From the NCBI GenBank assembly GCA_000827205.1, contig KN832555.1:3005011-3069010 (forward strand): DNA of 64,000 nt. Direction: 5' to 3'. This document shows positions 22,435 to 30,808 of the stretch, one piece after another. Made by a program: the position numbers and the translations under genes. Origin of the DNA: Plicaturopsis crispa FD-325 SS-3 (Eukaryota; Basidiomycota; Agaricomycetes; Amylocorticiales; Amylocorticiaceae). The number at the start of each line of letters is the position of its first letter. Within the stretch, counting starts at the first letter, position 1. Below the pieces are notes generated by a model. That model was not told where the DNA came from. It worked only from the letters and a program-made list of their open reading frames with translations, and ran no database searches.

Positions 22435-22444
22435 CCGATTCCGC
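22435..22444 (+). repeat. Left copy of the 10-bp target-site duplication
   Basis: CCGATTCCGC occurs here and again at 30799-30808, just outside the repeat clusters that bound the transposon. A 9-10 bp duplication is the length expected for MULE-type insertions. Confidence 0.65.
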
Positions 22445-22449
22445 GGCGG

Positions 22450-22575
22450 TTAACAAATTAACTTGGCAAATTGACTTATCCCTTACAAAATCAACTTAGC
22501 TTAGCTTTTCGCAGCATAAGTTGATTTGTCCAGTTAACTTGACGCTAGCTTTAAGCTAACAATTCAGCTTGAGGC
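22450..22575. repeat. Left subterminal repeat cluster of the transposon
   Basis: Repeated variants of TTAACTTG, TTGACTTATC, CAACTTAGCTTAGCTTTT and AGTTAACTTGACGCTAGCTT are packed into about 125 bases. The AACTT/TTAGCTT theme recurs at 29325-29505 and, inverted, at 30665-30798. Such subterminal arrays commonly bind the transposase. Confidence 0.6.
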
Positions 22576-23668
22576 CTACTGGGCCATGTCCGTGTTATCT
22601 GTGGTGCGTATTCCCTCCGAAACGGCCAAGGCAAACATATTTCCACGAGGCGCAGCTGCAAATTCCCCGGCAAGAACATGAACGGATGTTCGAACCTGCA
22701 AAGACCGTATATCCATTACTAACTTATGCTGACTTACGGTAGCTTACAGTCATTGCAGTGAGCGTAGACACTCTCCAGGGCGACGAAATGCATTAAATAT
22801 TGCCCGTGAATGCTTGAGCAAGTTTCCGCTAGGCAGTGGGCGCTTATGGGCGCCACATTTTTGACTGGCCCTTAAGCGGCGTCGCATGTTCATCGACCCA
22901 GCGAACAACGTTGTTCCTCACGGTGCTGCGTCTCAGCCTTACGCACTCGAAAATGCTTAATGATTGTCCATGCTGTCCGTCGCAGCCTGCAGTGAAAGTG
23001 CCGTGCCACCTATGACTAGCAGTAAGGGCTTGAGCTGCGAGCAACTACTAATGATCGTTGTCGAGCCATGCAGACTTCGACAATCCGCTGAGCGGCGCTG
23101 GTACGTTGCCCAATTTTTTCTTACGAGTTCTATAGCCTAATGATTCGTGTGTACTGGTTCAGGACACTGCACATTGCGTACCCGGTCATTACTGTAATGG
23201 CACGGGAACACGCCGCAGGAGCAACCTGAGTTGAAGACTTAGCGCATTCCGGGCGTTGCCTAAGCGCGAGATCAGGAATTTCGATTCGCGAGTTCGTCTG
23301 CCTGCTAACCAGCAGGAAAGCAATCATTTCCTTGCAAAGCCCCAAGGCGGCAGGCGCACCCGAAGATCTGAGCAAGCCTTGCTGTACAGTGCGTGTATGA
23401 CTTGTACAAGTAGCTGCTAGAGCTGACAGCTATCGGCAGACCCATAGCGCAGTACAAAACACGTCGAGTCGAGGATGCATACACCGGTATGACCCATCAT
23501 CGAGGCGCATCGGTGTTGTCAAGTCCTGAATCTGAACGATCGGTGTCTACAAAAGGTAACATAAATTTGGTTCCGTCTTACATGATGTGCACGCTGACGC
23601 TTTTCTTTCGATGCCCTCGCCCCCTTCTCCGACGTTTTCACTGCTCTGATTTGTACTGCCAGCTCAAG

Positions 23669-26600
23669 ATGTTTCGGAAGATCCTCAATTGGTTTAGGCC
23701 TGGGCAAGCATCCGACCCTCCCTACCGCGATCAGGTTCCACGACAAAACGGAGAAGGTATGTAGAGACACGTTGAGGCCTTTCTCGTGTGAGGCTCACAC
23801 CGTGCCGACAGACCCTCGTACTGCCTACGGACTCAATCATCCGTACTACGCGGCACCATATCCTGGTCCTCCACCGTCGGCCCCTCCCTATCCGTATTTC
23901 GACCCACGCGACCCGTTACAACTAGGTCAATATCCGCCCCATCGTAGGCAGCAAAATCTGCCGTCAAATGGTAGTCAATACCCTGCAGTGCCCAGCTTAC
24001 ATGCGGATGTAGCGGCGAATTTCCCAAACGGCTGTAAGTGAGCTACCCAAGTGTCCTGGCTCGTATCTGATTGCTTTTTGCACATATTAGACGCGATACC
24101 ACGTCACATGCAGGCCCAAAATGGTTTCTATCCCCCGCATACTTTCTCCCCGTATTATCAGCCCTCTTATCCGACCGCCGCCTCTCCATACATGAATATG
24201 TTCGGACAGCCCATGTATCATCCCCCAAACCATGCGCTGCCTCCGCCAACAGAGCTTACTGGTTCGAACGTGCGTATTTCTGGTGACCCCGCATCCTCCG
24301 ACCCTCCGCCGCTAGGCCACACTGAGCGAGGGGGAGACAATGGGCTGGGGACTCCGATGGTCGACCCCGAGGATCCATCATCTAACGATGGTCAGTTTAT
24401 TTGTGCAATCTTATTCTATGAATCTAACTCCGTGCGTTTGACTCAGACTGGCCGGTCGGCTATCATAGGCGCGAGCAGCCTAAGGGCAACGAGACACCGC
24501 TCTGGAAGCACACGAAGTGGGTGTGGCGATCACAAGGGCACGTCACGCACAATGACGCACCCGCGGAACGTCGCGTTTGCTTGGGTGTCATGAGGTGTAA
24601 TACCTGCGGTCGTCTCTCACGGCCGAAGACAGAGGCTGGCGCACGACAAATCCAGTTATCTGAGGGGTGCAGAGCTCCAGGCTGTGTTGAGTCGCAAGAC
24701 AGTCCCCTGCTACATGAAACCTGCGACGCAAAGTCTTTCCATTTCACCGTGCGCAGGCAGGGGAGGGCGTACCTCGTCTGGGAGCATTTCGGCATGCACG
24801 ATCATGATCGCCCACCCGGTGGTGGCCTCTCAAGGACGCAGGAGCTTGCGGTCGATGCACAGGTCCTTCGTCATCAGAATGCGAGTGCTCACCAGCTTCG
24901 CACTGGTGATAGCGGACCCGGCTCAGTGCCCTTGGCCGCAATCGCGCCTCCTCTTGCGAATCCCCGCACTGCTCGATACCAGATCAGCAAAAGTCAGTCG
25001 CGGGTTGGCATCCAGCCCTCCTCTGGCAAAGGCGGTCTATCCGTTCTCCATGAGCTCGGCGCGGTCAACGAGAAATTGGGGTCGACCTTTCTCATTGATT
25101 CCGGCCTCCTCGGTCCAACATACATCACCCTTCAGACCTCTTTCATGGACACCTGCATACGCGAGGCCGTCGAGGCATGGATTGAGGACCGAGAAGATAG
25201 CCCTGTCTCCTCCCGTCACGGATTCGTTACCGATGGAGACCATACATTCTTCCGTAGCGGAAATCTTCTTACGACGTGCTCGTTTAATACCACTATGCAA
25301 GCCTGGGTCCCTGTCCTTTACTCATGGATCGATGGCCTCGATACCGCACATCACCAGCCACATTTCAAGGCCCTTTTCAACTCTGTAGTGAAGCATGCTG
25401 GAAAGCGCTTCAAGAAGGAGTATCTTACGCATGTGAGTTCTGACAGTGTTGTCCGCATCGTGAGAAGTACACTTAATGTCGCCTAGATTATGGATTTTTC
25501 TGTTGCGCAACGTAATGCACACGCGGAGGAATACGCCAGCGTCATGCTTTCGCGTCTTCCATCTGTCCATGATCTATCCAATGAAGCCATCGCTGTCGAA
25601 CGCCGTCGATATATCGAGGAAGCTCGTGCAGCCGAGATTGGATGCGAGACTCATTTTTATCGCTCCTCGACACGCTTGAAGAAGAACGGCCTACTTGTCC
25701 CCCCAGCGCTCATTAACACCTTCGACGACTACATCCGGCAGCTGATGTCAGTAGACACGGATGATGCTCAGTTTGCCGCCGTCGTCCGAGACTTCAACGT
25801 TGATTTCCCCCGGTGCCACGGATGGCTGAAGTGGTGGCTACGTCCCACCATCGCATCCATGATATTTGCTTCGAAGCGTGTTATGGAGTCTGAGCTTATG
25901 AAGAAATACCCAACCAGCTCCAATCCTGTTGAACACCAGCACTCACTTCTTCATCATGCGACACAAATCGACAATGATCTCATTCCGGGGATAAAAGGCC
26001 TTTATCTGCATATTCGCGAACTCGAAGAACAGTACAATGCCATCCGTGGTAAGTTTAGCCAACCTTCCCTTATCTCCGTGAAGTGAAATCGGAACTCATG
26101 TCGTCTTTCTACTAGCTGGACACTTCAACCCGGAGGAGCCGCGCAAAAAGTCTCGTCCGGCTAGGCCACACTGGGACGCTAACGATGGGCGAGCTCCGGA
26201 TACGTACGAGGCACTGGCAACGACTTCAGCAATGCATCATGATGCTGCCGCTGACCCTTCGCATACTCGGGCTGTAGTCATTCCGGAGCGTCTACTGGTC
26301 TCGTATCGGTGGGATGTCAACTCTTGCTTCTTTGACTCCAGTCTTCAGCTTTGGTTTCATGCCTATTATTTGTGGTCACCGGAGACCCGGGAAACCATCG
26401 TTGCGGCACTGGGTAGTAAACCCGTCATCAGCTCGATCTTCTATCACTTCCTTCGCCGGTTACAGTGGATTACTAAGCCATCCCTAGATGACCTGGTGGG
26501 TCGGCGGGAGCTTGATCTCATGCAACGCCTTGTACGCCATGCTATCTTTGGAAAATGGAAGCTTTATCCTAATCCAAAGAGCTATGGCTGCGCAAAACGG

Positions 26601-29236
26601 TGGTTACGCCATGCTGTCCAGGTATGATACTATGATGCATCTATCAACCAGTTATATGTGCTAACAGACACGCAGGAATTGGACGAAGATACTCAAAGGC
26701 ATTTCAGTGTCCAGCACACCTCTGTTATGATGTGTCCAAAAGGTCATATATTGCTGCTGCCTGCGTCAAGTCCGGTACTCTTTTTACGCATAACCAAACG
26801 TGACGTGGACACACTCCGACATGTTTACGGTACCACGGGTGGCAAGATCACCACAGAACAATACTTCCAACATTTTGTACCCCAAATTGACGTTAGCGAA
26901 GACAGTGGTCGTACGATTCCCGTACACACCCTCTACTCCAAGGACCTGGTACCTTGTGGCCACCGCCATTGCCAGGATACTGTGTCCATCTCAGACATCC
27001 AGACATCTTGGCCGCAGCTCCTTCATATCATCCCCGAACCCCTCGTCCATCATGTATCCAGCACCGATTTTGCGGCAAGTAATCCGCTACACTACGAGCG
27101 GACATTTTGCATCTCCAATGATGCGGAAAATCACGAGCAAGTCCAGTACGAGCTTGTCGGGCGCGTCCTATATCTGGAGAAGCCCTCCCACTTTGTCACG
27201 CAGATGCTGTTGGGCAATCGGACGGTCCGATACGATGATATGGATGATCTTCTAGTGGATTCCGGCCCTTCCTCTATCCTAGAGAAGCCAAACAGGCACA
27301 CATCATTTCTCCTATACCACCGTATCTCAAAAGTGCAGGTGAGCCACATAGTTCCCTTGAGACCTATTCAAGTCATTGACCCATTTGATCATAGACCTCA
27401 ACACAAACTATCGAGACCATAACGAGCAACTACAATAAAGCCCCACCATAAATTCGACAACGCTCCGTAACCGTATCCTCCGACCATTCTTCCGAGCTGC
27501 ATCTACCTTCATCGGGTGAGCAGTGGGGTACACCACCTGACCTTTCGCCGGCACCTAGTATTCCTGATACAGACTTTGGAGTATTCGATCTACTAGATCA
27601 GCCAGACCCAGCCCGTGGCCTGATTTTGAGCGGTCAAGGTGATCATCCAAGTCGCAGTCCCTCTCCTTGGGATATCAAGTGTGCAGGGTGCGGTTTTGTT
27701 GGTGACGGACATACCATTGATGATGCTGCAGAATCCACACTGCAGTGTGACGCTTGCCACACGTGGCTGCATATAAAATGCATGACAGACCTGTTTGACT
27801 TGCCTGCGAACTACGCCGATGAAGATTACCCCTGGATATGCCCCCGGTGCTCCGGAAAGCCATTATGGAATGATACCTAGTGAGCAACTGTGACACGACC
27901 GTATATCTACAAGTTAGATGCCTATCTGACCATTTGGATTGATTCACAAATTAGCATTGGCCAGCATATACTGCTAGTCACACGATCTGATAGCAGGCTA
28001 TATCCTGTCAAGATCGTAAAGAGACGTGGAAATATGGTAGACCTCGAATGGCATCCGGGCAATGTCTACGCTCGCGGTGAAAACCCGCGTGGAAACTTGC
28101 AGCGGACTACCCAGTTGTGTGTCCGCTTACACGCAGGTGCTGCACGGCCTACTGGCAATGGGCGGAATCAAAATAACGTATGTCCCACTTTACAAAGTTG
28201 ATCTCCGAGATCGGCGGCTGAAATCTGCCAGAACATTATGCGGGAAATTCTGTGGCCAGTACGCCTAAGCGAAGATTCCGCTGAGCGGCACGGATACGTG
28301 AATGAGCCAATCACGCTTGCACTCGAGTCCGCTGCATCAGCTGTCCTTGATGCGCTACTTGGACTGCAGCCCGCCGGAGGTAAACACCTGGTCATGGTGA
28401 TGTTCGGACAGTGGATGGGAGAGTTACCGCCTGACGACCCGGACCCGGAGCCAGACAGTACCGATGCAGGACCAAAGGCCATGGAGGTGCCGCGTCCAGA
28501 ATTCGTGCCCAAGAAGTTGAGAGGCATGGCACGCATGCATCGTGCAAGCGACTTCCACACCAAACACCGTGTTCCCATCTTGCCCGGTGACCGGTCTCTC
28601 TGCTTCAATATCTTATATTGCATAAGGGTTCACCTCGGCATGTCACTGGACTCTTTAGATGACCTCCTCATCCCTGCCGAAACGATGTTGCATCTCGTGA
28701 TTCTTCGCACCTATCTCAATCGGACACCCTCCGATGATGACCAGATAGCCACTCTCTTCAAGAAAGGCCACTTTCGACGCATTCTTACCATCCACGAGCA
28801 GGCACTGATTGCATGTCATGCGTACGATGAGCACGACACTACGGACCCGTCAATTGTCCCACAATTCAGTGGTCCGGGGGCCTGTGCAACGAGGCCAAAG
28901 CATACGAAGGAACTTGACATTTCGAGTGCCTTTCCTCTAATTACAATCGAGCCGCCGCACATCTGGGAGGCAAGCGACTCTACCGGACTCTCCGGTGGCC
29001 GTCCGTATGCGGAACTCTCCCGGAAGAACTCGCTGGCTGGTCCCCCCGCCGGACCACGACCGAAACCAAAGATGAAGAGACGCCGTCGTCCCAGTCCTGT
29101 CGAGAACAACGAGGTCAATCCCGCGCCAGTGAGTGTGATAGATGAACAGGCGCAGCCTGCAGCAGATGACGCCAACCCTGCCGTGCGGAGAAGCAAACGC
29201 CTCAGATCCAATGCAGCGGGCGCAAGTTTGAAGTGA
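23669..29236 (+). CDS. MULE-type transposase: WRKY/GCM1 zinc finger, DDE core, ubiquitin-hydrolase-like, PHD and Tudor-like segments
   Basis: Ten exons join in phase: 23669-23756, 23812-24033, 24091-24390, 24447-25432, 25487-26048, 26116-26621, 26676-27338, 27395-27879, 27955-28177, 28232-29236 (about 1,680 codons). Order of parts: Pro/Tyr-rich N-terminus; Cys/His cluster with CNTCGRLSRPKT and EHFGMHDHDRPP (WRKY/GCM1-like, about residues 225-312); MULE core with TDGDHTFFRSGNLL (D about 466), MDFSVAQR (D about 535) and SNPVEHQHSLLHHA (E about 681); a Cys box WDVNSCFFDSSLQLWF (C about 790) and HTSFLLYHR, resembling ubiquitin C-terminal hydrolases; a PHD finger (about 1205-1258, CAGCGF, CDACHTWLHIKC, CPRC); a Tudor/BAH-like segment; and an acidic then basic tail. 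One in-frame TAA (27449-27451) remains in exon 8 unless a longer intron (27339 to about 27499) skips it. Confidence 0.78.
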
Positions 29237-29324
29237 TGCGGGTTGACCCTACGGTTTTCGACTTGGATTCCTGGGTTATCGAGCACTAGGTTGATAATGT
29301 AGTACTGTTAGCCTCATCGGTGTA

Positions 29325-29505
29325 CACGTTAACTTATAAGCTAGCTTACTACGAGTCGGCAAGTTAACTTATATACGCAACTTGTCGTAACTTATCTGTC
29401 TAATCTACGTGTTAACTTATGCACTTGACGGTCACTTAACTTATTCACTTAGCTTTTGTAGGACTGAACTGCATGCTAACTTATCAAATTAGCTTATGAT
29501 ATTAA
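29325..29505. repeat. Internal/right subterminal repeat cluster
   Basis: At least six copies of TTAACTTAT-like units (for example GTTAACTTATAAGCTAGCTTA and CACTTAACTTATTCACTTAGC variants) follow closely after the transposase stop. They match the theme of the left cluster in the same orientation. Confidence 0.6.
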
Positions 29506-29601
29506 AGCTGTTCCCGAACGTGAGCCTACAGCACTACAAGTATATTTTAGATGACTTTACCGTGCCGTGCATGTGTCTGCTCCACACGTCCGTGTAGTAG
29601 A

Positions 29602-30060
29602 GACTGCACTGAGGTGGAAACTGTCTGACAACGGCAAGGGCAAGGCCAGAGCAGAACCCGGCGAGCCCAGCCCCGTACGCTCCGAGAAAGAAATTGCCGA
29701 CGCACTGCACACCATCGAGACCATCCGACATCGACACCGCCTTCACCTCCCTCCACTCCGACTTCACCTTCCCCGCGCGCCTCGCCCTCCGCGCCCGTCA
29801 CGGACACGAAGCTCGCGTACACCGCTGCGAACGCGCCGGTGCGCTACTACGAGCATGCGCTGAGCCAGCTGCTGTCGAAGCTCGATGCGGTGGAGAGCGC
29901 GGGAAGCGAGGACGTGCGCGCGTGAAGGAAGGTGGTGGTGGCGCGCGTGGAGCGGGCACTGGAGGAGGTGGAGAGGGAGGTTAGTGGGAGGATGGGCGCA
30001 TGGAAGGCAAGGAATGGGGTGCAGGCGGAGAAGGAGGTGGAGGCACCTGTGGCGGAGCAG
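29602..30060 (+). pseudogene. Broken BAG-domain co-chaperone gene fragment
   Basis: Conceptual pieces in shifting plus-strand frames read SEKEIADALHTIETI, SDIDTAFTSLHSDFTFP, TDTKLAYTAANAPVRYYEHA, LSQLLSKLDAVESAGSEDVR and RKVVVARVERALEEVEREV. The last three match the fungal BAG domain, the C-terminal helical bundle of Hsp70 nucleotide-exchange co-chaperones. The N-terminal part of the host gene is absent. Two frameshifts (near 29720 and 29785) and a TGA at 29923-29925, where an Arg codon CGA is expected, break the frame. Codon usage is strongly GC-rich, unlike the AACTTAT clusters on either side. It lies inside the transposon borders, so it is best read as host sequence picked up by the element. 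Confidence 0.7.
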
Positions 30061-30664
30061 GGCAAAGATCACTGCAGTAAACCGTTAGTGAACAGCCAAG
30101 GCAAGGGGAGGAACTCAGGACGAACAGGACCACCGCGGGAGACGAGAATTCAGCCTCGATGCGGACAAAGTCGGACGCGCTTTGTACGACCTGCTCACCA
30201 TGAATCGTGTAGGCGAAGCTACGGTCCTCGACATGGGACGGGGTTGTCGCGCGCGTCACCGTTGAGCGCCCACGCATGTGCACGGTCTTGCATTCGGACT
30301 GGCATTCGGTGCGTAGCAGCGTTGTTAGTATTGGCACCACATGCAGCTCGAGGAGGACGGGCAACTTACGCGCATGGAAGCGGAACGACTGAGCACCGCG
30401 AGCTTGCATCAACATATGTGCCTGGAAAAGACCCAACGGGGTTGAGCACTGCAGATATGGATGCACTCGCTAATGTCGGTGTAGCCTGAGAGGACGACAT
30501 GAACATCGACGGTCAGCGTTTGACAGAGCGATCGACGGTGCGGACTCAGCGGTAACATACTTTTGTCATCTTCTGCGCGGTCAACTTACTGCAGGTCCAT
30601 CACCGACATATCGCACCTTTGGGCCCTGAGTAAGACTCTTGCCAGGATATTACAGCGCTCGAGG
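30061..30664. other. Unassigned cargo between the BAG fragment and the right end
   Basis: Both strands have open frames of about 160-185 codons, but I recognise no domain in them. A second captured fragment is possible. Confidence 0.35.
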
Positions 30665-30798
30665 GAGTATACAGTGAAAGCCAAGTTACATTGTTCAAGC
30701 GTGAGATAAGTCAAGTGAAAGCTAGCATAAGCTATCGTGCCAAAATTCATGCTGGAATAAGTCAATAAGTTAGCCCGATAAGTAACTTTATACACAAT
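30665..30798. repeat. Right terminal repeat cluster, inverted relative to the left
   Basis: On the minus strand this reads AAGTTACTTATCGGGCTAAC, TTGACTTATTCC, ATAGCTTATGCTAGCTTTC and CACTTGACTTATC. These resemble the left cluster (TTGACTTATCCC) in opposite orientation, as expected for the two ends of one element. Confidence 0.55.
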
Positions 30799-30808
30799 CC
30801 GATTCCGC
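30799..30808 (+). repeat. Right copy of the 10-bp target-site duplication
   Basis: CCGATTCCGC, identical to 22435-22444. Removing one copy and the element restores a continuous TRM6-UCS promoter of about 310 bp. Confidence 0.65.

Follow-up and report, generated by a model that had tools for sequence, protein, structure and literature searches.

A bounded transposable element in Plicaturopsis crispa carries a putative transposase gene with a likely fused PHD finger

Element boundaries and related copies

We analyzed a 64,000-nucleotide stretch of the Plicaturopsis crispa FD-325 SS-3 genome (33.2 Mb, 49 contigs), hereafter the window, which corresponds to C2:3005011-3069010 (C2 being contig KN832555.1). 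A transposon of 8,355 bp with defined boundaries lies at window positions 22445-30799 and contains the gene of a putative transposase. Its boundaries were located by DNA searches with the two flanks of the gene, which returned matching ends elsewhere in the genome. An initial annotation of the window had called the gene product a transposase from its motifs; the ends and the 9-bp duplications described here support a mobile element more strongly than that annotation could. The features of the element outside the gene, and the related copies, are as follows.

22445..30799, + strand: whole transposable element, 8,355 bp, beginning GGCGGTTAACAA and ending TATACACAATC; the termini recur at three other loci
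22436..22444, + strand: 9-bp target-site duplication, left copy, CGATTCCGC (terminus comparison)
30800..30808, + strand: 9-bp target-site duplication, right copy, CGATTCCGC (terminus comparison)
22445..22600, unstranded: left subterminal region, 3 ACTTA sites in 156 bp (19 per kb), GC 0.40
30641..30799, unstranded: right subterminal region, 4 ACTTA sites in 159 bp (25 per kb), GC 0.40
29237..29510, unstranded: ACTTA-rich repeat block directly 3' of the gene, 8 sites in 274 bp (29 per kb)
C2:1395427-1396309: related copy, 883 bp, 9-bp duplication CTTTCTATC
C2:851949-852860: related copy, 912 bp, 9-bp duplication CGAATTTAG
C21:128452-145792 (L018/L019): related copy split by a KDZ element, 9-bp duplication GTCAGATAG

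A perfect 9-bp flanking repeat was found at all four copies with both ends, each of which starts with GGCGGTTAACAA and ends with TATACACAATC. The three relatives are short and have a duplication of their own; the window copy is the full-length one. Over the aligned part, the window left end (22444-22570) is 79-84% identical to the other copies, and the right end is 74-76% identical to the three other copies. The count of four refers to loci where both ends were found; at a fifth place (L021, C4:181194, minus strand) the left end of the element family was present and the right end was not found, and this place was not counted. A KDZ transposon of ∼16.4 kb (C21:128799-145218; KDZ profile 8.1e-60) splits the short copy on C21; this KDZ transposon has inverted ends CACTGTGGGAA, and the 4-bp repeat TCCT stands at its junctions.

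Elsewhere the motif is rarer: its density is 0.5 per kb within the gene, 0.5-2.8 per kb across all parts of the element outside the three ACTTA-rich regions, and 1.0 per kb in window positions 31000-64000. The counts behind the enrichment are small (3, 4, and 8 sites). These repeats may be binding sites. The duplication length is 9 bp in 4/4 copies, which falls in the range that defines Mutator-like elements (MULEs; 8-11 bp, usually 9). Target duplications of 8-10 bp are on record for MULEs in the available text of one source (PMC5225508), and MULEs without terminal inverted repeats (TIRs) in that of another (PMC6446971). Because its ends are rich in ACTTA and have no clean inverted repeat, the window element behaves like a non-TIR MULE.

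Gene model and PHD finger

The gene and the parts of its predicted product are listed below, all on the + strand.

23669..29236: putative transposase gene, 1,645 amino acids (aa), ten exons joined in phase
23669-23756, 23812-24033, 24091-24390, 24447-25432, 25487-26048: exons 1-5
26116-26621, 26676-27338, 27497-27879, 27955-28177, 28232-29236: exons 6-10
27339..27496: intron 7, 158 nt, the weakest join, needed to keep the frame open
24590..24808: GCM1-type zinc finger, residues 252-324 (Pfam GCM, under cut-off)
25232..25933 (intron 4 included): DDE core by reading, D466, D535, C585-x2-H588, E681
26307..27323 (intron 6 included): candidate C19-like region (Cys-box columns; profile and hidden Markov model tests negative)
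26325-26327: C790; 27189-27191: H1060; with YDD at residues ∼1074-1076 and TSFLLYHR at 1097-1104
27680..27850: PHD finger, C4HC3, residues 1171-1227 (PF00628, over cut-off)
27955..29236 (intron 9 included): C-terminal part, exons 9-10, with a basic tail by reading; no recognizable family

As initially annotated, the ten exons join in phase into one protein, which is open for 1,645 aa at 23669-29236 and has D466, D535, E681, and C790 at the residues numbered there. A codon-usage score was trained on four long open reading frames of the window outside the element. The chosen frame scored top of the three + strand frames in 10/10 exons and top of all six frames in 6/10; in every case the score is small, between -0.12 and 0.12 bits per codon.

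Pfam matches were listed to E ≤5 for the whole protein and to E ≤10 for protein pieces, and the HMMER filters lose most matches with E above ∼0.1, which limits the reach of the Pfam negatives given below. The PHD finger is the sole domain of the 1,645-aa protein above a curated Pfam cut-off (PF00628: E 1.3e-5, 25.6 bits, cut-off 24; E 7.3e-7 on a 134-aa piece). All eight zinc ligands are kept (C1171/C1174, C1193/C1196, H1201/C1204, and C1224/C1227). The finger had been annotated as C8-type; the PHD assignment stands on profile and ligands, and the C8 type was rejected in favor of an ordinary C4HC3 arrangement. The best solved relative is the PHD of Bye1 (E 2.9e-5), which shares CDxCxTWxHIKCMTD with the element; Bye1 is a yeast transcription factor without a transposase, unlike the element protein. 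The PHD of Bye1 binds histone H3 trimethylated at lysine 4 (H3K4me3), according to the available text of PMC4100922. The earlier call of a histone-tail reader is supported at the level of the domain, and by analogy with Bye1 we infer that the mark read by the element PHD would be H3K4me3. A protein search of the own genome gave a weak PHD match on C7 (3.6e-4) and no paralog.

A Tudor-like segment had also been proposed. No Pfam Tudor profile was listed for the whole protein or for pieces including exon 9, and the Tudor claim was dropped for want of profile support. The best match of the C-terminal piece in PDB was an unrelated protein (E 0.12).

Insertion sites

We examined the insertion sites of the four two-ended copies as rebuilt empty sites. 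Three of the four fall between divergent start codons, a count with no genome-wide expectation behind it. At the window site, a TRM6-like gene (Gcd10p, 6.2e-10) and an UNC45-like gene (UNC45-central, 6.5e-31) point away from each other across a short gap. The element has inserted in this gap, with the TRM6-like start codon ∼105 bp and the UNC45-like one 205 bp away. The C2:1395k copy likewise has divergent neighbors, a pyrophosphatase-like gene (3.6e-12) starting ∼130 bp away and a PX-domain gene (6.4e-14) starting 142 bp away. The copy at C2:852k lies 84 and 559 bp from two divergent genes read by eye, one without a Pfam match and the other outside the Pfam scan. Three of four sites between divergent starts would fit promoter targeting guided by the PHD finger, as we infer.

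Proposed mode of action

We consider it more likely than not that the window element is a DNA transposon of low copy number that moves by cut and paste, is probably autonomous, and functions in the manner of a non-TIR MULE. The N-terminal GCM-type finger would bind the ACTTA repeats at the element ends, and the D466/D535/E681 triad, with its CxxH, would cut and join DNA strands staggered by 9 bp. The PHD finger would dock the complex on H3K4me3 chromatin at active promoters; insertions would land in promoters because of this docking. A divergent papain-like (C19-like) domain around C790 may deubiquitinate the transposase or histones close by; alternatively, it may be a structural remnant. Transposon-borne deubiquitinases and Ulp1 make the C790 proposal reasonable, here as a suggestion. 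The DDE call is made because the motifs stand in order (D-D-E, with CxxH between the second D and E, four motifs by reading alone) and because of the 9-bp duplications; profiles do not find the DDE part.

A series of observations weighs against this reading. The MULE profile PF10551 was not listed for the whole protein or for the DDE pieces, and the element is therefore filed as MULE-like and not as a proven MULE. In the own genome this profile matched two other loci, one over the cut-off, and not the window gene; local alignment of the DDE part to these loci (L001 and L002) was at shuffle level, with 197/500 and 99/500 shuffles as good. A structure model of the DDE part, built from the single sequence with no homologs aligned, was unusable (mean predicted local distance difference test score, pLDDT, 39.3). 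Of the MULE DDE core in the initial annotation, then, the motifs are in place, the profile and the alignments to MULE loci are negative, and the RNase H fold expected at D466/D535/E681 received a model too poor to judge. The GCM profile (PF03615) scored E 0.015 and 15.7 bits on a 169-aa piece (cut-off 25) and was not listed for the whole protein, so that the WRKY/GCM1-type finger called earlier keeps a marginal score on the piece and loses the whole-protein listing. No long TIR was found when the two 60-nt ends were compared, and the two ends are not mutual inverted repeats; their best match covers 13 nt of subterminal sequence and is not in register (3/1,000 shuffles as good). One full-length copy was found, with ends ∼74-84% like those of the short relatives. 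No clear divergent promoter was seen at the C21 site. Finally, at 158 nt and with a ..GAG end, intron 7 departs from the other eight introns, which measure 54-75 nt.

Because a single full-length copy was found and its ends have diverged from those of the short relatives, we conclude neither recent activity nor movement of the short copies by this protein. The search for a second copy of the gene used residues 204-1381 as query and scored the best candidates; within that scope no second copy was found in the genome. The PDB search with the DDE piece had an unrelated protein as best match (E 0.27), and scans of viral contigs found no relatives of the DDE part or of the C790 part. Of the two other MULE loci, L001 (C13) is over the Pfam cut-off and L002 (C5) just under it; by reading, a WRKY-like finger lies upstream of the match at L002. 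The WRKY-GCM1 zinc finger of MULEs was reportedly the subject of an earlier study.

Alternative explanations

The first alternative concerns one part of the protein: the C790 region may be no protease, its Cys box being a chance likeness within an unrelated domain. We give this an even chance. UCH/USP (PF00443), OTU, and Ulp1 profiles were not listed for the whole protein or for pieces; the UCH profile had 30 exon-level matches elsewhere in the genome and none within the window. A PDB search with the C790 piece gave an unrelated protein as best match (E 0.24), and an NCBIfam search of two pieces gave nothing. A Cys-box hidden Markov model (HMM) was built from ten boxes of ubiquitin-specific proteases (USPs) of the own genome, excluding L040 because of an insertion, L043 because an intron interrupts it, L048 for lack of the Cys, and any place not assigned to a locus. 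It scored the C790 box at -1.8 bits, with 136/3,000 shuffles equal or better; a four-box version scored it at -2.6 bits and placed its best match elsewhere, at residues 479-490 (0.1 bits). An HMM of eight own-genome USP His boxes (L040, L047, and others without a clear box left out) had no match in the protein, and the strict His-order pattern was not seen in the C790 region. On the other side, the Cys box RWDVNSCFFDSSLQ fits 8/10 columns taken from the own-genome USPs, which 46/20,000 shuffles reach, the columns having been chosen after the query box was seen. The order C, H, DD, aromatic strand also resembles that of USPs by motif reading.

HTSFLLYHR, the later motif of the initial annotation, was rejected as a His box, because in a USP fold it would form the final strand. 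The nearest His-box candidate we take to be SHF at H1060, by motif reading against the His-box signature. The structure model of the C790 part, also made with no homologs aligned, was unusable (mean pLDDT 33.9), which leaves the papain-like fold suggested at C790 where it stood. The earlier candidate deubiquitinase retains its Cys-box column count and fails the UCH profile, the Cys-box HMMs, and the His-box tests. Judged from the sequence, deubiquitinase activity of the candidate region is possible, and the ubiquitin-hydrolase call is unproven.

A second alternative is that the gene usually makes two separate things of what we join: a 56-nt intron 7 would be the common choice and yield a 1,127-aa protein with DDE and C790 parts, and the PHD finger would be reached by a rarer 158-nt splice or be dead. 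The alternative intron (27339-27394, ..TAG) shares the donor of the 158-nt one, which ends ..GAG, and its length agrees with those of the 8/9 ordinary introns; it brings a TAA into frame at 27449-27451, so that the product lacks the PHD. Against this stand the PHD finger itself, over its Pfam cut-off with every zinc ligand kept, and exons 8-10, whose joined frame runs open for 1,611 nt. Since no Met precedes the PHD in exon 8, a separate PHD gene is unlikely to start in this exon. Among GT-AG introns that have a donor within 27151-27450 and let exon 8 start at or before 27660, 46 keep the frame open, the shortest being 125 nt. We regard the account with a usual 56-nt intron as doubtful and the fusion of PHD to transposase as likely; that a 1,127-aa product is made is quite possible.

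The fullest version of the non-TIR MULE-like reading would have a single polypeptide in which the transposase is steered by the PHD to divergent promoters marked by H3K4me3, C790 belongs to an active USP, and intron 7 acts as a switch. The C790 enzyme would then strip ubiquitin at the site, with H2B and the transposase itself as possible substrates, and alternative splicing of intron 7 would decide whether the full protein or the 1,127-aa form lacking the reader is made. We think it unlikely that all of these parts hold together.

Placement in the KDZ type or in another superfamily is quite unlikely. A KDZ element does occur in the genome, and the DDE part has no MULE profile match. Yet the KDZ profile (PF18758) was not listed for the window protein, while the C21 KDZ transposon scored 8.1e-60 with the same library, and on this basis the KDZ type was rejected; the C21 KDZ element also has inverted ends and a 4-bp junction repeat vs. 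the 9 bp found here. A domesticated host gene that by chance lies inside an old insertion is very unlikely: no second copy was found, and the frame is open whereas a host gene piece with a BAG domain, captured by the same element, has decayed (indels and a stop), but the ends, the 9-bp duplication, and the subterminal repeats are all intact around the gene.

Comparison with known systems

Chromatin and ubiquitin tools on transposons are known piecewise in the parts of the literature covered here: SET, Ulp1, OTU, VTD, TET, and PHD. The PHD of RAG2 reads H3K4me3 and belongs to a transposon-derived recombinase. The RAG2 PHD is in a separate subunit of a Transib-type recombinase, whereas the element PHD is in the transposase polypeptide.

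The plant Kaonashi/KIU elements (non-TIR MULEs, VANDAL-type) have an added cysteine-protease domain, as the window element has in candidate form, and KIU carriers are reported to have an anti-silencing role (both in the available text of PMC13317346). Kaonashi/KIU captured Ulp1, of SUMO type, in a separate gene; the window element would have a C19-like candidate and a PHD finger in a single polypeptide. VANDAL duplications are 9 bp in the available text of PMC6446971. The same text describes MuDR-6_HM, a cnidarian MULE that resembles the window element in being without TIRs and carrying a deubiquitinase-type gene; it differs in the protease family, Ovarian Tumor (OTU), and in its animal host, and no PHD is listed for it there (PMC6446971). 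Rehavkus is MULE-related, has a 9-bp duplication and a PHD finger in its transposase (PMC6446971, available text), but it has TIRs and a minisatellite, occurs in arthropods and annelids, and has no protease listed in the same text (PMC6446971). Helitrons with VTD or OTU domains also encode deubiquitinase domains; they differ from the window element in being rolling-circle transposons with other protease families (PMC9741609, available text).

In the literature listings and passages covered, which did not extend to fungal protein databases, we found no fusion that joins both a PHD finger and a C19-like candidate to a transposase of MULE-like type. Similar agaricomycete proteins may be present in public databases. 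If the fusion is true, the choice of insertion sites by a mark reader is directly testable by PHD mutation and insertion mapping. The exact ends, the duplications, and the native short elements are material for a transposition assay.

Captured host gene fragment

Between the ACTTA-rich block and the right end, the element contains the captured host gene piece.

29606..30051, + strand: decayed host BAG-domain gene piece, captured; 86% identical to C2:3466888-3467345

The parent sequence at C2:3466888-3467345 is part of an open host frame of 466 aa with a BAG match over the cut-off (1e-8); the decayed piece in the element has a BAG score of 0.019, under the cut-off. A host gene fragment inside the element is the hallmark of Pack-MULEs, and the BAG piece provides one. 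Capture of host genes is common to Pack-MULEs and the window element.

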